IMG/VR virus record: IMGVR_UViG_3300031237_000012
Coordinates: 1-42,700 of that record
Length of the DNA stretch: 42,700 nucleotides
From: a virus
Reading direction: 5' to 3' (one strand)
The translations under genes were made by a program, and so were the position numbers. Below are positions 920 through 42,700 of this stretch, piece after piece. Numbering within the stretch: the stretch's first letter is position 1; the number at the start of each line of letters is the position of its first letter. A model generated the notes under the pieces. It was not told the DNA's origin and did not search any database. It saw only the letters and a program-made list of their open reading frames with translations.

Positions 920-3094
920 CTATATCTTAGCTATGAGTGTATCGAGGAATACATCGAAGTCCTTAACCATGAACACTTTGTCCTTCATTACATCTTTCTT
1001 GGATACTGTGTTGACTCTACTCTGGCCAATGTCCTCAGCGCCGAGCTCTTCGAGCAGATCACGGAAGTTGGCCACCTCTAATCGGCCCAGCTTATCCTCT
1101 GGGAGCAGCATATCAAGCATCATGGGCATGGAGAAGCGGTAATCTTCCGTGCCAGAGCGGAATATGATCTTCCTGAACTCACTGAGTTTGTTGGCCACGT
1201 CTCCATTAGTCCAGCGCTTGGCTACTTTGGCTAGGATAGGATACTCGCTAAGATAGTCAGACACGTGGGACTGGGAGTATTCGTTGGCAGGGCGGATGTC
1301 GCCCTCTAAGAAGAGCTGGTAGCCGTAGATTAGGAGGGTAAGCGCGCAGTCTGTAATTACTTCACGATCGCTTGATTTAGTGTCGCCAAACATCTTAACG
1401 CCTTCTACCTCCAATGTAATGAAGCGACGCTCACCAGCACCCTTGGTAGAGCGGATATAGTTGCGGTTCTTATCCACTGTGGTGAGCATGAGGGCCGCCC
1501 GGCGCAAGCATTCTACTGCGTCCTCCCCATGGCTACGGCGCTGGTTACTGATGCGCGTAGTGCTGAGCGTGAAGATATTCTGCTCTACAGTCTTGGCGCA
1601 TCTATCATCTGGGTCATATTCGTCGAACACAGCAACGATGCAGTCTCGGCATTGGCGCACATACTCAACCATGTTGGATCGTGGACCTTCCTTCTCTAAC
1701 TGAGCGATGGGCGGCGTGTAGCCGAGATACTCCAGGCAGCGCGTGAAGCTCTTAGGGAAGTTGGACTTGCCGCACCCACTGGGGCCAACGAGAGCCAACA
1801 CCCACTGTACATCTACCTTACGATCTGGTGACCACAGCGCAACCATGTCCCGAGAGCAGCGAATCATAGTTTCTACTGTTTCATCCATGGTCATAGGACC
1901 TTTGACCTTTATGCCATCTGTAAACATGCGCCTTGCTGCTTCCTGGGCTTGGGCCAAGGTAACTGGCGGCTGCTGGCTAAGCAGTAGCAGCGGTATGGAC
2001 ATCATACGAGCCTGCATTTCCATCGCACAGGCCTGCTTAACCTGAGTTCCACGGACACCAGCGCCTTCGCCCACAAACACGGTGTCCGCCAGCCACGTCT
2101 CATATCGCATTGCAAATGACTCTAAGGTTTCAGCACCTGATGGAATGTCCTCTTTGTTGTAGATTGCTCCACCTACATCCTGAACATAATTACTCCATAG
2201 CGGGTGATTAAGAAGCCTTCTGTAGTTGGCAGCAGTCTGCTCAATGAGGATTCTGTCCTTGGTAACTTTGACTTTGACTTGGTACTTGGCGATGAGGTGA
2301 GCAACTGGGAGAGCAGTTGTGACATCAACTCCTGAATCTTCAATGACTGCAAGGAAATGGGAACGGGCAAATTCTCCTTGGTCCACAAGCCAGTCGTCCC
2401 AGCCATTCCTGCCGTCTTGCATAGGAGGGACATTGGGAAAGGTGCAGGTGATATCAGGCCTAATTGCATGGATCCACCCCTTGAGCTGAGATGCGGCATG
2501 CATCACGTTAGGATTTTCGATTATGTCCCCGTCAAAGCACACTACGATCTTAGCGCTTGGCACCATGCACTTGATCATATCAGACAGAGATTCTTTCAGC
2601 CTTTTGTCTGTACTCCAGTTGGTGCATCCTGAGAGCGCTAGGCTGGGGATGCCAGTAATAGACTGGGCCAGAGCAGAGCTAGTGAACTTTTCGTGGAACA
2701 TGACTATCGGGGCTTGACACATCTCTGAAACTGTTGAGTTATAGTAGATGCAATCAGCACCCTTGTCGCTTATCTGTACGAATTTGGGAGGATTAGAAAC
2801 TGGGTGGAATGTCTTGTTTCGGCGCTGATATATATCTGCCTTGGGCCAGTTGCAGGGGCGGAGGAGCCAGCGATCATCATACAGCTCCCCGTCTGGTCCT
2901 CTAATTTGGAATGCCCACCCCTCTAAGATAAGTGGCGCAAATTGATTCTCACCAGTCTTTGTGAAGAATCCGACGTTTGCGTTCTTGTAGGGGAGTATGG
3001 GTAGGTCTTGTATAGATAGGCCGCGATCATCTAGATACTGCGCCACCTCACTCAAATAAGTTTTATCCGTCTGGAGAAACTTAGAAATGGTCAT
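920..3094 (-). CDS. Primase-helicase: TOPRIM-like domain plus P-loop ATPase
   Basis: A 724-aa replication protein. The N-terminal half looks like the DUF3854-type TOPRIM region found in phage and plasmid primases: a Glu-bearing strand near residue 135 (EKFTSSA), KIVVCFDGD at about 182-190, and GWDDWL near 231. The C-terminal half is a helicase-like ATPase: Walker A GPSGCGKS at 437-444, Walker B IVAVFDEYD at 486-494, a sensor-like LMLTTVDKN, and an arginine-rich segment after it. It probably primes and unwinds DNA for the family A polymerase encoded at 12.6 kb. GGAG 6 nt before the ATG supports the start. The leader (3095-3236) is crossed by an antisense promoter and terminator. No separate replicative helicase of the DnaB type is seen. 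Confidence 0.82.
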   Translation of the reverse strand: MTISKFLQTDKTYLSEVAQYLDDRGLSIQDLPILPYKNANVGFFTKTGENQFAPLILEGWAFQIRGPDGELYDDRWLLRPCNWPKADIYQRRNKTFHPVSNPPKFVQISDKGADCIYYNSTVSEMCQAPIVMFHEKFTSSALAQSITGIPSLALSGCTNWSTDKRLKESLSDMIKCMVPSAKIVVCFDGDIIENPNVMHAASQLKGWIHAIRPDITCTFPNVPPMQDGRNGWDDWLVDQGEFARSHFLAVIEDSGVDVTTALPVAHLIAKYQVKVKVTKDRILIEQTAANYRRLLNHPLWSNYVQDVGGAIYNKEDIPSGAETLESFAMRYETWLADTVFVGEGAGVRGTQVKQACAMEMQARMMSIPLLLLSQQPPVTLAQAQEAARRMFTDGIKVKGPMTMDETVETMIRCSRDMVALWSPDRKVDVQWVLALVGPSGCGKSNFPKSFTRCLEYLGYTPPIAQLEKEGPRSNMVEYVRQCRDCIVAVFDEYDPDDRCAKTVEQNIFTLSTTRISNQRRSHGEDAVECLRRAALMLTTVDKNRNYIRSTKGAGERRFITLEVEGVKMFGDTKSSDREVITDCALTLLIYGYQLFLEGDIRPANEYSQSHVSDYLSEYPILAKVAKRWTNGDVANKLSEFRKIIFRSGTEDYRFSMPMMLDMLLPEDKLGRLEVANFRDLLEELGAEDIGQSRVNTVSKKDVMKDKVFMVKDFDVFLDTLIAKI

Positions 3095-8545: not shown

Positions 8546-8718
8546 GCTGTTGTACCTTTATAGGGTTGGGGTTTGTGGTGCAGGTACATAGTGGCACTAC
8601 CCAAAATCCTAGGCAATAGCCTGACAAAAATAATTTTAAAATAATTTTGTTGCCTTTAGTGGCACCTATTAGTAAGGTGGCACTACACCCACAGCACACG
8701 TATAAAGGCAGGCACACT
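8546..8718. promoter_or_regulatory. Divergent early control region
   Basis: The only point where leftward early genes and the rightward replication arm diverge. It holds three AGTGGCAC-type motifs (near 8589, 8659 and 8677), an AT-rich tract at 8624-8650 made of two AAAATAATTTT-like repeats, and a small inverted repeat AGGC/GCCT (8611-8622). Both flanking genes carry TATAAAGG before the start codon. A rightward promoter is clear; the leftward one is not obvious, although a CTATGTACC segment near 8590 also occurs upstream of the junction gene. The AT-rich tract could be an UP element or an origin. Confidence 0.6.
8650..8678 (+). promoter_or_regulatory. Rightward promoter P8.65
   Basis: -35 TTGCCT at 8650-8655, 17-bp spacer containing AGTGGCACC, -10 TAAGGT at 8673-8678, followed by GGCACT. 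Faces the replication arm. The -10 is weak by sigma-70 rules, but the architecture matches the other sites. Confidence 0.6.
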
Positions 8719-8886
8719 ATGAAAATTATTCTCTGGGCCCTACTAGCTATGAATATTGTGTACGGAATATTCATGGTCTTTTACGGCACTGTCGTGAACA
8801 CCGCCAGCAACAATGAATGGTATTCCCTAGCCAACTTCGCCGCAGCGGCCTTTATAGGTTGGTGCATTAGCACAGTGAGGGACTAA
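8719..8886 (+). CDS. 55-aa double-pass membrane protein
   Basis: First gene of the rightward arm; start at 8719 chosen as the first ATG after the promoter, with AAAGG upstream. Two hydrophobic segments (about residues 3-23 and 36-51) make it an inner-membrane hairpin. An early membrane protein could alter host envelope functions, but its role is unknown. Confidence 0.6.
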   Translation: MKIILWALLAMNIVYGIFMVFYGTVVNTASNNEWYSLANFAAAAFIGWCISTVRD

Positions 8887-12623: not shown

Positions 12624-14423
12624 ATGATAGGCACTGAGCGCTTAGAGATTGAGCTCGACATTGAATCCCATAAGATCGTTAAAGGCGCCCCGCTGCGACC
12701 CATCCCTGTGGGCGTAGCACTGGGCATTCCCCAGCCCGATGGCAGCACTCAGCGCGTGTATCTGGCTTGGGGGCACCCAGAGGGCAACAACTGTACAAAG
12801 GAGCAGGCACGTGAAGTCCTACTCAAATACTGGGACGAAATCTTCATCACCCACAACGGGCTTATCTTTGATATTCCTAACCTTACTTATCATTTCGACC
12901 TGCCTGAACGCGACCCACTACTCACTCATGATACGCTCTTCTCGTCCTATCTCAACAACCCGCACGCGAGATCTCTTTCTCTTAAGGATCTAGCCAACGA
13001 CTGGCTGGGCATTGCGCCGGACGAACAGCAAGATCTGTACGACTGGATTGTGGACAACGTGCCGGGCGCTAAGCGCTCAGAGGCTGGCGCTTACATAGCG
13101 GAGACTCCAGTTAGTCTATCCGGGCCGTATGCAGTGGGCGACATCTATCGAACCCGCGAGCTACACGAGTTCAATAAGGACACTATATCGGACCAAACTG
13201 AGGCGTATAATAGGGAGCGTATTCTGGCCCCAATACTGAGCAGGATGCAGAATGGGGGTATATTGGTGGACGAGGCTCGTCTTAAGGACGATTGCCACAA
13301 AGCCAATATGAAGCGCGCCATGTTGGATCACTTGATCCGCGAGCATCTGCGTGTGGGCCCTGATTTCGAGATTAAGGACGCCAATCTCTGCGCTAAGCTT
13401 AAAGAGCTTGGATATGAAGGATTTCTATTAACCCCCAAAGGCAAATCGTCTATGGGGAAAAATAGTCTGGAGGCAGTCCTTGAAAATGATCCGAAGCTTA
13501 AGAGCCTTTTGGCATCTAGGAGTACATACGATACCCTCATCGGCACTTTCATGGAGCCATGGCTTCGCTATTGTCAATCCAACGGAGGGCGAATTCACCC
13601 CTCGTATCACCAAGTACGAAACCCAGACGGCTTCGGAACTCGCACGGGACGCTTATCTTCAAGCGACCCTAACGGGCAAAACGTTCCTAAGGATCAGGGC
13701 CTCGACTACTGGGGTGACCCGTTTCCGGATATGCGTACTTATCTGTTACCTGAAGTTGGTCAAGTTTGGTTTTGTGGTGACTTTAAGTCGCAGGAGCCAA
13801 GACTGACTGCGCACTTTGAGTGCGGAGCGCTGATGCAGGCGTATATAGACGATAGGTTCCTGGACTGCTATAAATGGGTTAAGGATTTAGTGGGGGGAGA
13901 CGTCACCAGACATGAGGCCAAGCAAGTGTTCTTGGGGTTGGTATATTCCATGGGCCTGGACGCACTGGCAGGGAAACTTGATTGCTCCAAAGAGCGTGCC
14001 AAGTATCTGAGAGATACTATCAAAGCCATGCTGCCAGATGTTACCGAACTTGATAAAGAGTGTAAAGCCAGATTCAAGCATGGTCTACCAATTCGTACCC
14101 TCGGTGGTCGCATCTATTATTGCGAGCCTGGATCTAGTCCATGGGGAGGAACTTGGGATTACAAGGCGCTCAACACTCTGATTCAGGGCAGCGCCGCTGA
14201 CCAAGGTAAGGAGGCCATGATCTATCTTGACCCTAAGATCTCGGCTACTGGCGGGAGGATATTGGTGCCAGTACATGATGAAATTAACTCCAGCGTCTTT
14301 GAAAAGGACGTGCCGTACATAGAAGAGATTTACCAAGAGGCGGCCAACGCTCTGAAGTGCGATGTGCCGATGATCTTTGACACAGGATGGGGCCCGCACT
14401 GGGGCGCAGCGAAGCCAGCATGA
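12624..14423 (+). CDS. DNA polymerase, family A, with 3'-5' exonuclease
   Basis: 599 aa. Exonuclease motifs: ELDIES (Asp12/Glu14), THNGLIFD (Asp83) and YAVGDIYRT. Polymerase motifs: A in CGDFKSQEPRLTAH, B in RHEAKQVFLGLVYSMG, and C in VPVHDEI (His-Asp-Glu at 551-553). It lacks a 5'-3' exonuclease domain, as usual for phage enzymes of this type. It probably replicates the genome together with the primase-helicase. Motif B has Tyr rather than Phe at the O-helix position (VYSMG). The start lies close to Exo I, so the N-terminus is short; the ribosome binding site is weak (GAG). Confidence 0.93.
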   Translation: MIGTERLEIELDIESHKIVKGAPLRPIPVGVALGIPQPDGSTQRVYLAWGHPEGNNCTKEQAREVLLKYWDEIFITHNGLIFDIPNLTYHFDLPERDPLLTHDTLFSSYLNNPHARSLSLKDLANDWLGIAPDEQQDLYDWIVDNVPGAKRSEAGAYIAETPVSLSGPYAVGDIYRTRELHEFNKDTISDQTEAYNRERILAPILSRMQNGGILVDEARLKDDCHKANMKRAMLDHLIREHLRVGPDFEIKDANLCAKLKELGYEGFLLTPKGKSSMGKNSLEAVLENDPKLKSLLASRSTYDTLIGTFMEPWLRYCQSNGGRIHPSYHQVRNPDGFGTRTGRLSSSDPNGQNVPKDQGLDYWGDPFPDMRTYLLPEVGQVWFCGDFKSQEPRLTAHFECGALMQAYIDDRFLDCYKWVKDLVGGDVTRHEAKQVFLGLVYSMGLDALAGKLDCSKERAKYLRDTIKAMLPDVTELDKECKARFKHGLPIRTLGGRIYYCEPGSSPWGGTWDYKALNTLIQGSAADQGKEAMIYLDPKISATGGRILVPVHDEINSSVFEKDVPYIEEIYQEAANALKCDVPMIFDTGWGPHWGAAKPA

Positions 14424-15340: not shown

Positions 15341-15891
15341 GAAGAGAATCCAGCATTGAGAAAGCCTTTGCTCGCATCTGCACTAAACTGTTCACGGCCT
15401 TTGGGCTGCCCCACAAATACGTCAAAACAGTTACTCCTGGGCGTAAGGGGTGGCCCGACCGGCTACTGGTATTCGGGCCCAGTGGCCACCACATCTATAT
15501 AGAGTGGAAACAGCCGGGCGAAGAGCCAGATGCTATGCAAAGACAAGTACATAATGAACTCCGAGCGCTAGGCGCTGAGGTACGATGGTATGACAACCAC
15601 TACATCGCTCTGGTCGAAATCGAGGCCTTCGTTAGAGCCAAAACCGGAGCAAATCCGTGGGATGAAGCTGATTGTCCAGAATGGTGGAGTCAGATTATTC
15701 TTAAAGCCAGGAAAGGGAAAGACCTCTATAGTCCTAAAGAGCTTCGAAGTCCTGAAGCGCATGGACCTAGTAGACGCACTCCTAGTACTCGGACCGTTGC
15801 GCGTCATAACGACAAGCTGGCCCTCAGAGCTCCAGAAGTGGGAAGACTTCCGCCATCTGTCATACGTGACGATCCATGGTGGGAAGACTGA
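15337..15891 (+). CDS. VRR-NUC domain nuclease
   Basis: 184 aa as read. Residues 1-107 are a typical VRR-NUC domain, a minimal PD-(D/E)XK nuclease: GWPDRLLVF (Asp41), IYIEWKQPG (Glu56, Lys58) and Gln69 in the QRQVHNEL helix. The family includes stand-alone phage nucleases that act on branched DNA. The last ~77 residues look unlike a domain and lie wholly inside the helicase gene in another frame, giving a 302-nt overlap. Either the natural stop was lost or this tail is truly expressed. Confidence 0.8.
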   Translation: MRRESSIEKAFARICTKLFTAFGLPHKYVKTVTPGRKGWPDRLLVFGPSGHHIYIEWKQPGEEPDAMQRQVHNELRALGAEVRWYDNHYIALVEIEAFVRAKTGANPWDEADCPEWWSQIILKARKGKDLYSPKELRSPEAHGPSRRTPSTRTVARHNDKLALRAPEVGRLPPSVIRDDPWWED

Positions 15892-17029
15892 ACGACTGAA
15901 AGCGATGAAGGCTGACGTAGACGTATACCTGATGAATATTGAGGGGCTGCTGACGACTGAGTGGAGACTCGGGCCACAGAAGAGGGGATATCCCCTTAAT
16001 GAAGTAGCCTTGAATTTCTTGCGCGGCAAGAGGGTCATGCTGGCCGTAGATGAGTCCACTAAATTCAAGACAAATGATTCCGCCAGATTTAAGACCTTGA
16101 AGAAGTACCTCAAATACTTTGCGCGCCGGGTAGTTATGACTGGCACCCCTAAGCCGAACAAGCTTGAGGACTTATTCTCGCAATGCTATATCACGGATAT
16201 GGGGGAGGATTTAGGTGAGTATATCACGCACTTCCGCAACGAGTATCTTGCTCTCGATCATGATGGCAAATATATACCTCAAGTTACTGCTGTTGATAGA
16301 ATTGCAGCAAAGATCGCGCCAACGACCCTGCAACTCGAAGACTCCGAGGCTATACCTTGTCAGTACGTCGACATCTGGCTCCCATTCCCAGAAGAGCTGA
16401 AGCCAGCCTACAAGGAGTTATCCAGAAACTTCATAGCAGAGATTGCTGGTAAGGATGTCATGGCGGTCAACGCCGGGGTCTTGTTTGGCAAGCTCCGCCA
16501 ACTGGCCCAAGGGGCTTTTGTAGATGATGAAGAAGATTGCGGTTATCGTGTTGCTCATGATCTTAAATTGGATGCTCTAGAGAACTTATTAGAAGAGCTG
16601 AACGGTGAACCGGCCTTTTGTCTTTACTGGTACAACTCTGACTATCAGCGCATTAACCAGCGCCTTGGCTACACAGTGCCAAGGGTTGGGGGCGGCGTTA
16701 GCGCCACTCAGGGAGCCGCGTACTGCGCCAGCTTTGGCGCCGGGGGTATGCCCCTGCTGCTGGGGCAACCGCAAAGCGTAGCGCATGGTGTGGACGGTCT
16801 ACAGCAGAACTGCAATAACGTGATTTGGTTCGCCAATGATCCTAGCTGGGAGAATACCTTCCAAGCTAACCGGCGAGTGGCCCGCCAAGGGACCAAAGCT
16901 GAGCAGGTGTTCATCTATAGGATCATGCTGGACTGCCCGTTTGAGCGCGCTCTGCTGGCGATAGTAGACGGTAAGGAGTGTAGTGAGGCGGAGTTTTTAG
17001 CTATCCTACGAAATTATTTAGTTGCTTAA
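15590..17029 (+). CDS. SNF2-type DEAD-like helicase
   Basis: 479 aa. Motifs in order: Q-like KPEQIRGM (about 18-25), Walker A LKPGKGKTS (38-46), DEST box in LAVDESTKF (154-157), TGTPKPN (motif III), and motif VI-like QANRRVARQGT near 430. This is the compact phage form of SNF2/DEAD helicases, usually next to VRR-NUC nucleases. It may remodel forks or recombination intermediates. Start at 15590 has GAGG 9 nt upstream although it lies deep in the VRR-NUC gene. Confidence 0.88.
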   Translation: MTTTTSLWSKSRPSLEPKPEQIRGMKLIVQNGGVRLFLKPGKGKTSIVLKSFEVLKRMDLVDALLVLGPLRVITTSWPSELQKWEDFRHLSYVTIHGGKTERLKAMKADVDVYLMNIEGLLTTEWRLGPQKRGYPLNEVALNFLRGKRVMLAVDESTKFKTNDSARFKTLKKYLKYFARRVVMTGTPKPNKLEDLFSQCYITDMGEDLGEYITHFRNEYLALDHDGKYIPQVTAVDRIAAKIAPTTLQLEDSEAIPCQYVDIWLPFPEELKPAYKELSRNFIAEIAGKDVMAVNAGVLFGKLRQLAQGAFVDDEEDCGYRVAHDLKLDALENLLEELNGEPAFCLYWYNSDYQRINQRLGYTVPRVGGGVSATQGAAYCASFGAGGMPLLLGQPQSVAHGVDGLQQNCNNVIWFANDPSWENTFQANRRVARQGTKAEQVFIYRIMLDCPFERALLAIVDGKECSEAEFLAILRNYLVA

Positions 17030-17673: not shown

Positions 17674-17799
17674 ATGAACAGAAATAATTGGAATGAGTGG
17701 CAGAATCATCTAAGAGAGGTTAAGGAGAAAGAAGAAAGACTGCAGAAGGAGATATGCCGTCTTCGTGAAGAAATAAGAAAATTGAAGGGCGAATCATGA
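17674..17799 (+). CDS. 41-aa coiled-coil peptide
   Basis: Almost entirely a charged helix with heptad-like spacing (Leu at EERLQKEICRLREEIRKL). Its TGA overlaps the glycosyltransferase ATG. GGAG lies about 11 nt upstream. It may be a small partner or a translational leader for the glycosyltransferase. Confidence 0.55.
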   Translation: MNRNNWNEWQNHLREVKEKEERLQKEICRLREEIRKLKGES

Positions 17800-19043
17800 A
17801 GATACTCATAACGTTCTTCCCCATAGATGATATGGGGGGCATCATCAATCATCATGAGCAGCTATGTGCCGGGCTCCAAGAGCTTGGCCACCAAGTAACT
17901 ACCAAGCTGCTGATGTGGCGGCCACACGCTCCGCGCTCAGCCGCTGGCGGCGTCAATGACATGGGATTCAGCGGGCTCTCCTTTGACCAGCGCAAGGGGT
18001 TCACCTTCCTTAACAAGGACATAATCCCATACCAAGGCGCTGAGAACTTGGCGCGATGGAAGGAGTACGCAAGTGGCTTCGATCTCATCATTTGGCAAGT
18101 GGCAGTTCCTACGAAGCGCAAAGAAAATGCGGGGAATACAGATTGGATCAGCCTCTATAACACGGACGTACCACAGGTCGCTGTCATTCACGACGGTAAC
18201 TTTCTTGATTCCTACCCATGGCTGCATCTTGTTGGGTATAAACTGGCGGGGCTGGCCTGTGTTCATAACTGCGCGTTTAATTCGGCTAGACAAATTAACA
18301 TCCCCTCAGCGCTCGTACTTAACCCGTTCGATATAAGTAATCCGGCCCCGATAGATAGGAGCTCGTTCAAAGCACGTAATCCGGGGTTCCTGAGCGTGCA
18401 GACCTTTAAGGCGTGGAAGCGTGTCCCGGAGCTTTGCGCTGCCATCCCACACATGGGCAATATTGCCAAGCATGTGGCGGGCAAGGGCATAGACTACTAC
18501 TATTTGACAAGCGAGGACAAGTGCAAGTATCCCGGAGTTTGGGATAACGCCATAGCCCACGGGATGAACTACATGGACGTCATATCTAACTTCCAGAGAG
18601 ATAAAGTTCTGCGCTCAGTCACTACGCTCATAGACCCCAGTTGGTCTAAGAAATATGGGGCCATTGGCGCGCATTTCAACCGAGTAATGGTGGATGCCAT
18701 TCTACAGGGGGCCATCCCCATAGCTCGGGACTTGGGGGTTGGCGGGGGAGCAGATGATCTATTTCAGGATGGCTGGAATTGCTTCACTATTCCATGGGAT
18801 GATGACCCCATACATTTCGGCGTGTCAGTAAATCATTTTGCGCATACGCCATTTCATGAGTATGAAGATATAATTATGAACGGCAGAGATCTTCTGCAGA
18901 AATTTGAGCGCAAGGCCGTGGCCCAGCGCTTCATAGACTTAGGGCTGGGCGCGTTGTGCGAGCAGCGCGGGGTTCTGTCTGAAGAAGTTAAGATCAAAGG
19001 ATATCTGGCTCTTCAACACTTTTTCGCTGGGGGTATAGCATGA
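17796..19043 (+). CDS. GT-B fold glycosyltransferase
   Basis: 415 aa. The N-terminus MKILITFFPIDDMGG and the following helix-strand pattern, and the C-terminal LQGAIPIARDLGVGGG ... DGWNCFTIPW, are typical of GT-B (GT4-like) enzymes that use NDP-sugars; the latter matches the usual sugar-nucleotide loop followed by an Asn-Gly/Cys-Phe motif. A conserved Lys-Ala-Trp-Lys-Arg (about 208-212) may contact the phosphates. Its direct linkage to a 5-hmdU-type enzyme and a thymidylate-synthase-family gene points to hydroxymethylated bases in DNA as acceptor, but a protein or small molecule acceptor cannot be excluded. Confidence 0.8.
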   Translation: MKILITFFPIDDMGGIINHHEQLCAGLQELGHQVTTKLLMWRPHAPRSAAGGVNDMGFSGLSFDQRKGFTFLNKDIIPYQGAENLARWKEYASGFDLIIWQVAVPTKRKENAGNTDWISLYNTDVPQVAVIHDGNFLDSYPWLHLVGYKLAGLACVHNCAFNSARQINIPSALVLNPFDISNPAPIDRSSFKARNPGFLSVQTFKAWKRVPELCAAIPHMGNIAKHVAGKGIDYYYLTSEDKCKYPGVWDNAIAHGMNYMDVISNFQRDKVLRSVTTLIDPSWSKKYGAIGAHFNRVMVDAILQGAIPIARDLGVGGGADDLFQDGWNCFTIPWDDDPIHFGVSVNHFAHTPFHEYEDIIMNGRDLLQKFERKAVAQRFIDLGLGALCEQRGVLSEEVKIKGYLALQHFFAGGIA

Positions 19044-19231
19044 AGCAATTTCTTGTCGCTTGGTATAGCTTGACCGATGGCATGATCTATCACACGTTCG
19101 TGGATGCTGTAAGGATCTTCTTCGCCGCTGAAGAAGCCCAGAAAAAGGTAATTAATGAGGATCCAAAGTTGTGGGAGAAAATTGTCCGCGAAACTACAAT
19201 GATGGATATTCGTGAGGTGTGGACAAAATGA
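19040..19231 (+). CDS. 63-aa protein in the modification block
   Basis: Both ends overlap the neighbours as ATGA, so it is translated between the glycosyltransferase and the base-modification enzyme. Mixed helix (AEEAQKKVINEDPKLWEKIV) after a beta start (QFLVAWYSLTDGM). The pattern resembles small accessory domains, but I do not recognise it. Confidence 0.6.
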   Translation: MKQFLVAWYSLTDGMIYHTFVDAVRIFFAAEEAQKKVINEDPKLWEKIVRETTMMDIREVWTK

Positions 19232-20076
19232 ACGAAGAAATTGTTGGGAAATTCTGGTACTGGATACGGGAGCGGGAGAGTATAAGAATTAGCAAGGAAC
19301 ATGGTGAGCCCAGACGGGTGTGGACAAATGACCCTATTCTGGCCACTTATCACTTCTGCAACGTGCGCAGAGAAGATGACCGTGGCACTAGGGAGATACG
19401 AGATGTAGTGCAGCACTACTTCCCCCTAGATCAGGATGATGTGGCCACAGTCAGCTGCTTGCCCACCATCTATCTGATGGCCCGCCTCTTCAACCATGCC
19501 CCCACACTGGAGCGCATCCTGCTGGCCACAGATCATGGGGCCAGTATTGAGGAAGCGTTTGAGCAGCTGAAGGAATACAGGGATGCCGGGAACAAGATTT
19601 TCAATAGTGCGTACGTGGTGAGCACTGCGGGCGAGAAGATGGACAAGATCGACTATGTTCTGCGCTTAGTGCTCGCCGCTCAGCGCACGTTGATCCCTAC
19701 TACATCTTTAGCAGAAGCTCATGCTGCATTAAGTAGCATTGCCGGGCTGGGCGGCACGGGCTTCCTAGCAGCGCAGGTAATTGCCGACCTACGTAACGAT
19801 CGCTATCTGGTTGCCGCTGCCGCTGAGCAGGATTGGTGCTCACCAGGACCAGGATCTATACAAGGCCTAGACTTTATATTTGAGGGGGGAACCTCCGTCG
19901 GCAATTTCATGGCCCGCATGGCTATTCTGTACGATATTATGCCGGATGATATATGGGATATGGCGCTCCACGCTCAGGATCTGCAGAACTGTCTATGTGA
20001 GTTTGGCAAGTACATGCGCCTGAGTAACCCACGGCTCAAATCCCGTAAGCGCTACTACAAGAGGGAAGAAAAATGA
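19228..20076 (+). CDS. HMUDK-helical/aGPT-Pplase-like DNA base hypermodification enzyme
   Basis: 282 aa from the ATG at 19228 (ATGA overlap). The N-terminal motif WIRERESI ... VWTNDPIL ... FCNVRREDD (about residues 12-51) and the later GLGGTGFLAAQVIADL and GPGSIQGLDFIFEGG are the signature of the family described as 5-hmdU DNA kinase helical domain / alpha-glutamyl-putrescinyl-thymine pyrophosphorylase. The second motif is the helix-hairpin-helix and Gly-Pro-Gly loop of DNA-glycosylase-like folds. Members flip and modify 5-hydroxymethyluracil in DNA. This copy has no P-loop kinase domain attached. It is preceded by a glycosyltransferase and followed by a TS-like enzyme. Confidence 0.82.
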   Translation: MNEEIVGKFWYWIRERESIRISKEHGEPRRVWTNDPILATYHFCNVRREDDRGTREIRDVVQHYFPLDQDDVATVSCLPTIYLMARLFNHAPTLERILLATDHGASIEEAFEQLKEYRDAGNKIFNSAYVVSTAGEKMDKIDYVLRLVLAAQRTLIPTTSLAEAHAALSSIAGLGGTGFLAAQVIADLRNDRYLVAAAAEQDWCSPGPGSIQGLDFIFEGGTSVGNFMARMAILYDIMPDDIWDMALHAQDLQNCLCEFGKYMRLSNPRLKSRKRYYKREEK

Positions 20077-21125
20077 TTACAGTAAGAGAATTCACAGATC
20101 TACGCGGCATGTGGAGAATGCTATGCTTCAGGGCCACAGACCCCAATCTCACTGAAAAGGTGGAGACCCGCAATGGCCCGGCCATCAAATTCAAGGGTGT
20201 GCAATGTCTCACGGTGCGTGAGCCTTGGGAGCGTGTTCTATTTGATCCAGACCGGAATTGCAATCATGTATTCCATCTCATGGAATCGATATGGATGCTG
20301 GCAGGGCGCAACGACGTGGGGTTCCTCCAGCAATTCAATAGCAACATTGAAAACTACAGCGATGATGGATCAGTTTTCCACGCTGCTTACGGTCACAGAT
20401 GGCGGAACCATTTTGATGTGGACCAGATCACCAAATGTATTGAGATGTTGGATGAAGATCCCAACGACCGGCGCGCAATAATCAGCATGTGGGACGCTAG
20501 GGAAGATGGCAATGGGAAGAGTGGTAAAGACTTCCCATGCAACATGATGATTATGCCGTCGTTCAGTCAGAAAGATTCCCCAGACGGTATGACTAAATAT
20601 GACCGACTTGATTTCACTATTATTAATCGCAGTAACGATCTTGTGTGGGGCCTGTGTGGCGCTAATGCTGTTCACATGACCATGTTGCAGGAGTTCATGG
20701 CTGATGCTCTAGGAGTTAAGTGCGGGGCTTGGCACCACATTACCAACAACCTGCACGTATACGAGCAGCACTGGCCACTGGTGAAGAAAATCGCTGAGGA
20801 GGTTGCTGGCCCTATGTCGGGCAGAAAAGAATGGGAGCGCTATGCTGGCGTACTCACTCCCCCCAAACGTAAGCCTATGGTCGTTAATTGGCGGACATTC
20901 CTTAAGGAATGTGAGGAGTTGTGTAATGGGAAAACAGAAGGCTTTACGGAACCGTTTTTGGAGGAGACGGTGGAACCTGTTTGGGCGAGCTGGAGGGAGT
21001 GGAAGGCCGGGAACTTCCAAGAAGCTATTGACATTGCTGAATGTATTGACGCGTATGATTGGAGACTCGCAATCGTCCAGTGGTACAACAGAGCACTATT
21101 TAAAAAAGGAAAACCTAATGCTTAA
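20073..21125 (+). CDS. Thymidylate-synthase-family enzyme, probable dUMP hydroxymethylase or TS
   Basis: 350 aa, longer than the ~264 aa of cellular ThyA. TS hallmarks: Arg-Arg at 133-134 (NDRRAIISMWD), catalytic Cys156 in KDFPCNMMIMP, INRSNDLVWGLCGANAVH (Asn198) and the His-x-Tyr element in NNLHVY (228-230). In phages this longer form makes either dTMP or 5-hydroxymethyl-dUMP; sequence alone does not settle which. The flanking hypermodification genes favour hydroxymethylation. Start overlaps the previous stop (ATGA). Confidence 0.85.
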   Translation: MITVREFTDLRGMWRMLCFRATDPNLTEKVETRNGPAIKFKGVQCLTVREPWERVLFDPDRNCNHVFHLMESIWMLAGRNDVGFLQQFNSNIENYSDDGSVFHAAYGHRWRNHFDVDQITKCIEMLDEDPNDRRAIISMWDAREDGNGKSGKDFPCNMMIMPSFSQKDSPDGMTKYDRLDFTIINRSNDLVWGLCGANAVHMTMLQEFMADALGVKCGAWHHITNNLHVYEQHWPLVKKIAEEVAGPMSGRKEWERYAGVLTPPKRKPMVVNWRTFLKECEELCNGKTEGFTEPFLEETVEPVWASWREWKAGNFQEAIDIAECIDAYDWRLAIVQWYNRALFKKGKPNA

Positions 21126-21642
21126 TTCTCTAGAAAGAGTACACTTAGCGCGTCGCGCTGGGCGCGTTACACGCTATCATCAGCACACCCTACTGAAAAC
21201 TGAAAACGTGGCTGAGCATACCTTTGGTCTGATCAATATTCTAATGATCATGACTGATCGTCAAATCACTTCTAAGCTGCTCATGGCCGCGATGACTCAT
21301 GATCAGGGTGAGTACGTGAGTGGGGATATCCCAAGCCCCATCAAGCACGGGTTGGGGGTGGAGTTCAAGGATCTACTGAACACCATTGAAGATAAGGCCA
21401 TGCACGATATCCATGGCGGCACATGGGAAGAATTAAGCGAATGGGAATATCTGCTTCTTAAAACAGCAGATAATCTGGATGGGCTCCTCAAGTGTATTGA
21501 GGAGAAAAGAATGGGGAACTACACTATCGAGTTCATTGGCGATAAATACGCTGAATATCTCGAAGCTCAGCTCCCAGCACTTGGCGGCGGCCCGGCAGCG
21601 GAGCTGGTGCGCCTTACTCTAAACGAATGGCATTGGAAGTGA
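21118..21642 (+). CDS. HD-domain 5'-deoxynucleotidase (YfbR-like)
   Basis: 174 aa. Start at 21118 has AGGA 8 nt upstream and overlaps the previous stop by 8 nt. HD residues: His near 21-23, AEHTF (His34), MTHDQGEY (His61-Asp62), GDIPSPIKHG (Asp70) and KTADNLDG. The pattern matches YfbR-type nucleotidases, which dephosphorylate deoxynucleoside monophosphates. Here it could deplete dTMP so that modified precursors enter the DNA; that role is inference. Confidence 0.85.
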   Translation: MLNSLERVHLARRAGRVTRYHQHTLLKTENVAEHTFGLINILMIMTDRQITSKLLMAAMTHDQGEYVSGDIPSPIKHGLGVEFKDLLNTIEDKAMHDIHGGTWEELSEWEYLLLKTADNLDGLLKCIEEKRMGNYTIEFIGDKYAEYLEAQLPALGGGPAAELVRLTLNEWHWK

Positions 21643-21645
21643 ATC

Positions 21646-21966
21646 ATGAGTGATAATTACGATCATATTCAAGAAGTGGCCAACTCCGACGTAAGAACTC
21701 TTCGGGTTAAGAACGAGTCTTACGGGGCCAGTTGGCGGAAGCGGGGCGGAGTCGGCGCCTTCATGATGCTGGCCAGGAAATGGGACCGACTGGAGACTCA
21801 GTGCATCAAGCATGGGTACGACATCTTCCAAGCTGTACTCGCGGGGGTCTGCAGTAAGGATGATATCTTGGATGATATAAGGGATTTGAGGGCCTATCTG
21901 CTTCTGGTGGAGTCGCACCTTACCAAGCCCGATAATAAGCCTGACGACGACGATATTCCTTTATAG
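21646..21966 (+). CDS. Nmad1-like nucleotide-modification-associated protein
   Basis: 106 aa. The segment NESYGASWRKRGGVGAFMMLARKWDRLE and the following DIF/RDLRAYLLL match the small all-helical family formerly DUF1599, now nucleotide modification associated domain 1. It is repeatedly found beside phage DNA-modification and nucleotide-pool genes. It ends 8 nt before the bidirectional terminator. The biochemical function is unknown. Confidence 0.78.
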   Translation: MSDNYDHIQEVANSDVRTLRVKNESYGASWRKRGGVGAFMMLARKWDRLETQCIKHGYDIFQAVLAGVCSKDDILDDIRDLRAYLLLVESHLTKPDNKPDDDDIPL

Positions 21967-42434: not shown

Positions 42435-42700
42435 TTAGGCTTGGGCAAGGTAGCCGCTCTTAACAAAGGCGCGTAGGTAGCTGGCCGGCGTGCCGCTGCC
42501 CAGTAGGGCTTGGGCCTTAAGCGGTGCCAGCGCGGCCACAGCTTGGGCATGGGTAAAGGTGGTGCCCAGCCCGGCCAAAACTTCTATAACAATGGCGCGG
42601 GTGTTGGTGGCCTTGTGGCCGTTGCTGCGCCACTGGGCGCCTACTGGCACGGTGCAACCGCGTTGCAAGGTAAGGTGTGGGGCAATAACCTTGGCTTTGG
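42435..42700 (-). CDS. Junction gene, 3' part
   Basis: This is the C-terminal part of the protein that starts at 291 on the other side of the join; 42575-42700 duplicates 9-134. The frame is conserved exactly through the overlap. Residues encoded here include a Trp-Arg-Ser-Asn-Gly-His segment, a helix-rich Ala/Leu stretch and the end SGYLAQA. The helix-turn-helix-like spacing (TNTRAIVIEVL, then THAQAVAALAPL) hints at a small DNA-binding fold, but this is only a visual impression. The 68-aa gene at 42286 lies downstream in the same direction, and a terminator follows at 42031-42055. Confidence 0.7.
   Translation of the reverse strand, partial: KAKVIAPHLTLQRGCTVPVGAQWRSNGHKATNTRAIVIEVLAGLGTTFTHAQAVAALAPLKAQALLGSGTPASYLRAFVKSGYLAQA
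42575..42700. repeat. Terminal direct repeat, right copy
   Basis: Exact copy of bases 9-134. It lies inside the gene that crosses the join, so the overlap is coding sequence and not a non-coding terminus. That favours an assembly overlap of a permuted genome over a dedicated cohesive or repeat end. Confidence 0.93.

Follow-up and report, generated by a model that had tools for sequence, protein, structure and literature searches.

The virus record IMGVR_UViG_3300031237_000012, known from metagenomic sequence, is 42,700 bases long and was analysed at its full length (the window). Between positions 17674 and 21966 it possesses a tightly packed gene run, in which a GT-B glycosyltransferase (GT) is situated upstream of HMUDK_hel, a protein of the systems that modify 5-hydroxymethyldeoxyuridine (5-hmdU) in DNA. 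In phages such as YuA the same position is occupied by the 5-hmdU DNA kinase. The run probably represents a branch of thymidine hypermodification in phages which dispenses with the kinase and in which the GT would glycosylate 5-hmdU directly; from the sequence data the probability of this reading is put at about 0.72. It is carried by the protein families, the gene order, the lack of a recognisable kinase, the swapping of the slot gene among related operons and the link of the GT family to two kinds of enzyme which make 5-hydroxymethylpyrimidine. The four main genes are as follows (aa, amino acids).

17796 to 19043, + strand: GT-B glycosyltransferase, 415 aa; predicted to glycosylate 5-hydroxymethyluracil in DNA, and placed where YuA-type operons have the 5-hmdU DNA kinase
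19228 to 20076, + strand: HMUDK_hel (aGPT-Pplase1), 282 aa from the ATG; alternative GTG start at 19219
20073 to 21125, + strand: thymidylate synthase (TS)-superfamily enzyme, 350 aa; predicted deoxyuridine monophosphate (dUMP) 5-hydroxymethylase
about 21118 to 21642, + strand: HD-domain 5'-deoxynucleotidase (YfbR-like), 174 aa; predicted to remove thymidine monophosphate (dTMP)

A preliminary description, made from the DNA letters, had reported that the genes of this run overlap or nearly touch. All the open reading frames (ORFs) were found in place, with 4-base overlaps at the junctions 17796/17799, 19040/19043, 19228/19231 and 20073/20076. Start/stop overlaps couple the GT, a 63-aa ORF, HMUDK_hel, the TS-family enzyme and the HD nucleotidase.

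The glycosyltransferase and its operon partners

The GT showed no match in the Pfam, PHROG or NCBIfam profile libraries and none by tblastn against 50,697 phage records. Its distant homologues match Pfam GT4/Glycos_transf_1 weakly, under the cut-off, and the GT itself lacks the canonical GT4 marks (EX7E motif and a Pfam GT4/Glycos_transf_1 match). The profile of the TET-associated glycosyltransferases (TAGT, PF20691) also found no match in the window. The AlphaFold (AF2) model of the GT was of high quality, with a predicted local distance difference test score (pLDDT) of 90.2 and a predicted template modelling score (pTM) of 0.90, and it displayed two Rossmann domains in the GT-B arrangement, as the preliminary description had supposed. 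In Foldseek searches against the PDB the top matches were HepE (E=3.5e-13) and PimA (4.9e-13), and the alpha-glucosyltransferase of phage T4 (T4 AGT) was matched at about 1e-9. Named viral fold matches included the glycosyltransferases of phage SP-15 and the DNA alpha-glycosyltransferase of cyanophage S-TIM5. The GT is predicted to transfer a sugar to a 5-hydroxymethylpyrimidine in DNA.

No recognisable kinase accompanies it, in agreement with the preliminary description. The 5-hmdU DNA kinase profile (PF18748) gave nothing at E<=1 across the whole record, and a P-loop scan of the window revealed no small convincing ORF. Convincing Walker-A motifs were found only in a primase-helicase (920-3094, minus strand) and in an SNF2 helicase (15590-17029). 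The former, a 724-aa P-loop protein, was examined as a possible kinase and discarded because of its DUF3854 and VapE-like regions. PF18748 was detected in 7 of 8 records with a kinase in the slot versus none of 29 with a GT there. Fusions of the kinase with HMUDK_hel were absent among the records examined; in ViI and phiW-14 HMUDK_hel is a separate gene.

The families proposed in the preliminary description for the three downstream enzymes were borne out by profile searches. The protein at 19228-20076 matched PF18723 with E=1.3e-37 (130 bits, cut-off 25) over profile positions 2-280 of 281, and phrog_2396 with 9e-40. It is 25% identical to YuA gp14, and its AF2 model is all-helical (pLDDT 92.8). 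A set of residues (R16, F43, N45, R48, D51, R86, N89, Y129, D187, G207-P-G, G213, C257, E258 and K261) is invariant and identical across the groups with kinase, TAGT and GT. Such partner-independent conservation is as expected for a shared recognition function. In fold searches helix-hairpin-helix (HhH) DNA glycosylases (AGOG, OGG1, EndoIII and MagIII) recur as weak matches, all with E>1.

The TS-type enzyme matched PF00303 (E=9e-24) and phrog_5131 (E=1.2e-89) and is 38% identical to YuA gp17, which is annotated as a putative deoxyuridylate hydroxymethyltransferase. Its nearest solved structure is the CMP hydroxymethylase MilA (2e-18, versus 5e-10 for thymidylate synthases). In the alignment the catalytic cysteine is present in all 93 rows, while the base-specificity site is Asn in 91 of 93 and Asp in MilA; Asp at this site (the Asp179 rule) selects cytosine (PMC6400193). 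The nearness to MilA and YuA gp17 together with the Asn points to dUMP as the predicted substrate and hence to 5-hmdU as the acceptor of the GT. Sequence alone may fail to tell hydroxymethyl- from methyl-transferring TS enzymes (PMC5977210), and hydroxymethyl transfer is inferred here from the same nearness to YuA gp17 and MilA. The HD nucleotidase matched PF12917 with E=9.6e-17 (61.7 bits, cut-off 25.9) and has a homologue in YuA gp18.

The proposed pathway consists of five steps, of which the chemistry, the sugar, the linkage and the presenting role of HMUDK_hel are all predicted. The TS-family enzyme would convert dUMP to 5-hydroxymethyl-dUMP, and the HD nucleotidase would remove dTMP, letting 5-hmdU triphosphate compete. 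The phage family-A polymerase would incorporate 5-hmdU into DNA, and the GT-B enzyme would move a sugar from a nucleotide-sugar donor to its hydroxymethyl group, forming a glycosyl-5-hmdU similar to base J. HMUDK_hel would recognise or flip 5-hmdU in DNA and present it to the catalytic partner in the slot, which would be a kinase in YuA/M6-type phages, TAGT in many relatives and the GT-B enzyme here. The T4 beta-glucosyltransferase glucosylates 5-hydroxymethyluracil (5hmU) in single-stranded DNA, but in duplex DNA it requires that the base be mispaired with G (PMC4111573). A helper for the flipping or presentation of A-paired 5hmU in duplex is therefore plausible by analogy.

An exchangeable slot upstream of HMUDK_hel

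HMUDK_hel is immediately preceded by a gene of about 190-210 aa in five phages (YuA, Pam3, PaMx11, AIIMS-Plu-RaNi and Sinatra), and in RHph_TM26 one small gene intervenes between the kinase-slot gene and HMUDK_hel. The slot gene is counted as the kinase in YuA, Pam3, PaMx11, Sinatra and RHph_TM26. Usually TS, HD and the family-A polymerase gene (polA) follow downstream in these phages. The slot gene of YuA, gp13, matches PF18748 (E=7.8e-18). A further 80 HMUDK_hel loci came from scanning 2.9 million viral contigs with a profile; the usual order in them is polA, a gene of PD-(D/E)XK size, SNF2 helicase, a small gene, the slot, HMUDK_hel, TS and HD. Slot labels were assigned to about 98 HMUDK_hel loci with profiles built in this analysis. 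The slot was found to contain a kinase in 24 loci, TAGT in 45 and a window-type GT in 14, two of the GT labels (L036 and L037) being distant homologues 6.8 kb away which should be discounted; two slot enzymes never occurred together. Three tested TAGT slot proteins matched PF20691 with 3.7e-13, 2.4e-8 and 3.8e-19. The slot gene is directly upstream of HMUDK_hel, or one small gene away, in all 24 kinase loci, in 42 of the 44 TAGT loci measured, and in every window-type operon as well as L065. It usually overlaps or abuts HMUDK_hel.

When the slot labels were mapped onto a phylogeny of 95 HMUDK_hel proteins, at least 15 changes were required. The window falls in a clade of four members, in which two GT loci (the window and L002) and two TAGT loci (L013 and L014) are interleaved on starred branches, and the HMUDK_hel proteins of the clade members are 76-77% identical to that of the window. 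Fisher tests of slot exclusivity gave p values of 6e-9, 0.012 and 5e-5, which are naive as they ignore relatedness. The gene content shows that the position upstream of HMUDK_hel behaves as an exchangeable slot for a predicted kinase or one of several glycosyltransferases.

Some individual loci deserve mention. The 5-hmdU DNA kinase genes of YuA (gp13, L005:7405-7968) and PaMx11 (gp49, L012:7423-7992) are labelled 'terminase small subunit'. A radical-SAM/SPASM protein (PF04055/PF13186) is encoded immediately 5' of HMUDK_hel, between it and the TAGT gene, in two loci (L026:1507-2532 and L060:6997-7980), hinting that the sugar or base may be tailored further. In two others (L018:4594-5502 and L052:7070-7993) the protein in the slot has about 300 aa and no Pfam match; this is perhaps another glycosyltransferase family. 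In L027-L030 and L078 none of kinase, TAGT and GT lies within 6 kb of HMUDK_hel, so that either a fourth type of partner or a distant partner would be present.

HMUDK_hel may itself be catalytic, for example as an aGPT-PPlase-like transferase, with the GT acting on its product or later. The many polar residues which stay invariant whatever the partner would fit such a role, as would its naming as a pyrophosphorylase by homology in the Pam3 annotation and the separation of GT and HMUDK_hel in four loci (L098-L101). Against this, HMUDK_hel accompanies kinase, TAGT and GT-B enzymes of differing chemistries, for which a fixed prior chemical step is hard to define, and the slot enzyme mostly overlaps or abuts it. 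We regard a catalytic HMUDK_hel as unlikely. The wider proposal, that HMUDK_hel is a general 5hmU-presenting subunit with interchangeable partners (kinase, TAGT, GT-B and perhaps radical-SAM) and that phages of the window's group carry a base J-like glycosylated 5-hmdU made without phosphorylation, is given even odds.

The GT family was then followed with its own profile in the same 2.9 million contigs and in 84,980 genomes of prokaryotes; scans with close proteins gave one relative each, and alignments were used instead. Thirty GT homologues were obtained, 28 loci in viral contigs and 2 in prokaryote genomes. HMUDK_hel is present in 12 of the 30, and TS was also seen in 11 of those 12. An independent gene order, HMUDK_hel-FkbM-ORF-GT-TS-PDDEXK-HD-polA, was found in L098-L101. 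Another 16 homologues adjoin a TET/JBP oxygenase in other, often larger phage contigs; profiles confirmed the oxygenase in all four records tested (PF12851 at 1.8e-24 in L110). The remaining two lie where the contig ends upstream. Thus every GT homologue with a visible upstream side is accompanied by HMUDK_hel or stands beside TET/JBP, and none was found outside such operons among the 84,980 genomes. The GT family is phage-specific, and the TS-type hydroxymethylase and TET/JBP are two unrelated predicted sources of 5-hydroxymethylpyrimidine beside it.

The two homologues from prokaryote genomes (L121 and L122) are on contigs binned to metagenome-assembled genomes of Cytophagaceae and Flavobacteriaceae (Bacteroidota). 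Both carry the HMUDK_hel/GT/TS operon and are probably phage contigs, and the binning gives a hint of the hosts of a related GT lineage. An FkbM methyltransferase (PF05050) adjoins the GT in two separate lineages (L100:5004-5696 and L065:5644-6300), which suggests that the transferred sugar may be O-methylated in them. In L110 (4278-7350) neighbouring genes encode the TET/JBP oxygenase, the GT and a cytidylyltransferase-like protein (PF01467), and a cytidine diphosphate-linked donor for DNA glycosylation is possible there.

This distribution bears on two other readings. The GT might target a non-DNA substrate such as the host surface or a virion protein and stand in the operon by chance, and the solved folds nearest to it do include the cell-wall and protein glycosyltransferases PimA, TarM and SdgB. 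The restriction of its homologues to operons with HMUDK_hel or TET/JBP and its place in a recurrently swapped kinase/TAGT slot make this highly improbable, and a generic cell-wall enzyme was rejected on genomic context. The preliminary description had named as contrary outcomes a 19228 gene outside the 5-hmdU family and a GT among cell-wall enzymes; family and context place both genes otherwise. Secondly, the GT might use free 5-hydroxymethyl-dUMP or -dUTP, with the product then incorporated, or act on host- or phage-made 5-hydroxymethylcytosine (5-hmC). Its relatives do adjoin TET/JBP, an enzyme whose substrate in phages may be cytosine. We consider this improbable, as the operon hydroxymethylase carries the uracil-fitting Asn, neither TET/JBP nor a dCMP hydroxymethylase was identified among the scanned window genes, and HMUDK_hel belongs to systems acting on 5-hmdU in DNA.

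Several results weigh against direct glycosylation. Comparison with DNA-base glycosyltransferases, which the preliminary description had proposed, was divided: the enzymes of T4, SP-15 and S-TIM5 are matched, but the solved folds nearest to the GT are generic GT4-type enzymes, and T4 AGT ranked 41st and lower. In the alignment the GT has Ala in place of the first acidic residue of the GT4 EX7E motif. HMUDK_hel has no significant match among PDB sequences or folds. Slot exclusivity was not significant after correction for relatedness (0 same and about 4 opposite pairs, median p 0.125), a sign test which is underpowered, and ten loci of the tree have none of kinase, TAGT and GT nearby. PF18748 detects the kinase in ViI, YuA, Pam3 and others but gives no hit for phiW-14, SH-Ab 15599 and Sinatra; it was for this reason rejected as sole proof of kinase absence, and the P-loop scan was added. 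Both lines together give good support for the absence of a kinase from the record, short of certainty.

Alternatively, 5-hmdU may still be primed by a kinase that is divergent or comes from the host, with the GT adding to a phosphorylated or later intermediate; PF18748 does miss some genuine systems, and many small ORFs of the window are unannotated. The outcome of the P-loop scan and the lack of any locus with both kinase and GT among the about 98 make this improbable. The preliminary description had suggested a route which skips the kinase and leads directly to glycosylated 5-hmdU. The place of the GT in the kinase slot, this lack of co-occurrence, the presence of TAGT, a recognised DNA-associated family, in the same slot at 45 loci, and the GT homologues beside TET/JBP argue for such a predicted route.

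Neighbouring genes and the record

Other features of the window are listed below.

17674 to 17799, + strand: 41-aa coiled-coil ORF, overlapping the GT start; its coiled-coil matches are weak
19040 to 19231, + strand: 63-aa ORF between GT and HMUDK_hel; overlap-coupled, not conserved
21646 to 21966, + strand: conserved operon protein, 106 aa; 44% identity to Pam3_54
12624 to 14423, + strand: family-A DNA polymerase (POLA; PF00476, 4.6e-41) of the shared replication block
15590 to 17029: SNF2 helicase, a Walker-A protein
920 to 3094, - strand: 724-aa DUF3854 and VapE-like protein, probable primase-helicase
9 to 134, no strand: left copy of the 126-base direct terminal repeat; right copy at 42575 to 42700

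The coiled-coil peptide and the 63-aa ORF named in the preliminary description exist as ORFs, but a role in the system is not supported for either. The nearest GT relative, L002, has no room for a counterpart of the 41-aa ORF (a 166-aa gene ends at 8691 and the GT starts at 8758), which makes its membership doubtful. The 63-aa ORF has no Pfam match and is missing from L002, L015, L016 and L094, where the GT directly adjoins or overlaps HMUDK_hel; in L002 the two are separated by 1 base. The 106-aa protein was previously called Nmad1, a label left unsupported, as no Pfam family including Nmad1 matched it even at E<=1. Its homologues occur in most related operons, and the Pam3 relative bears the annotation 'nucleotide modification'.

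The gene order POLA-SNF2-slot-HMUDK_hel-TS-HD is retained in relatives. The primase-helicase gene is opposite in strand to the remaining replication genes. The direct repeat is exact at both ends of the record, which is therefore probably complete.

Relation to known hypermodification systems

The thymidine-hypermodification operon of M6/YuA type (Lee 2018, 2022, as cited in PMC6449724 and PMC9599517) shares with the window HMUDK_hel (aGPT-Pplase1), the dUMP hydroxymethylase and the YfbR-like nucleotidase beside polA; the predicted hydroxymethylase, HMUDK_hel and HD nucleotidase are mutually adjacent near polA in both. In the window a single GT-B glycosyltransferase takes the place of the PF18748 kinase and of the enzymes for amino-acid tailoring. 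By its gene content the window set is a branch of the M6/YuA/ViI hypermodification systems; it was not classed as one of them because the kinase which defines them was looked for and not found.

The nearest published precedent is the cassette of HTVC023P-type pelagiphages, which similarly has TS, aG/PT-PPlase1, a 5'-deoxynucleotidase and a putative DNA glycosyltransferase near the DNA polymerase (PMC9599517). That paper names a beta-glucosyl-HMC-alpha-glucosyltransferase in multiple clade II pelagiphage genomes and reads the cassette as a broadening of, or addition to, the system; it proposes no replacement of the kinase. The enzyme name is that of the TAGT family, and the window GT differs in fold family from this putative glucosyltransferase. 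TAGT occupies the identical slot in 45 loci, including the phages closest to the window, and belongs to a different sequence family from the GT.

T4 AGT is similar to the window GT in its GT-B fold and acts on a 5-hydroxymethylpyrimidine in DNA, namely 5-hmC, while the identity between the two is about 12%. The base J pathway of kinetoplastids has the same predicted end product, glycosylated 5-hydroxymethyluracil in DNA. There oxidation by JBP1/2 makes 5hmU within DNA, whereas a hydroxymethylase acting at the nucleotide level is predicted in the window. Bacillus phage SP-15 has a glycosylated thymine-derived base, and its glycosyltransferases were the 2nd and 9th viral fold matches of the GT; it differs in that no HMUDK_hel operon is described there. 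SP-15 makes dihydroxypentyluracil with Thy1-type synthases (PMC5977210). Glucosylated 5hmdU was stated in 2019 to be unreported in phage genomes (PMC6449724).

The present analysis predicts glycosylated 5-hydroxymethyluracil in phage DNA, points out an uncharacterised glycosyltransferase family and recasts HMUDK_hel, or 'aGPT-PPlase1', as a partner-independent module for the recognition of 5-hmdU. If the prediction is true, the way in which many phages of the environment modify their DNA would be forecast by the identity of their slot gene, and a DNA glycosyltransferase specific for 5-hmdU would make a useful reagent. Compared with the systems above, the new elements are that the kinase slot holds another GT family, that this slot is exclusive and recurrently exchanged, and that the GT family is linked to TET/JBP; its TET-linked members may already have been described.

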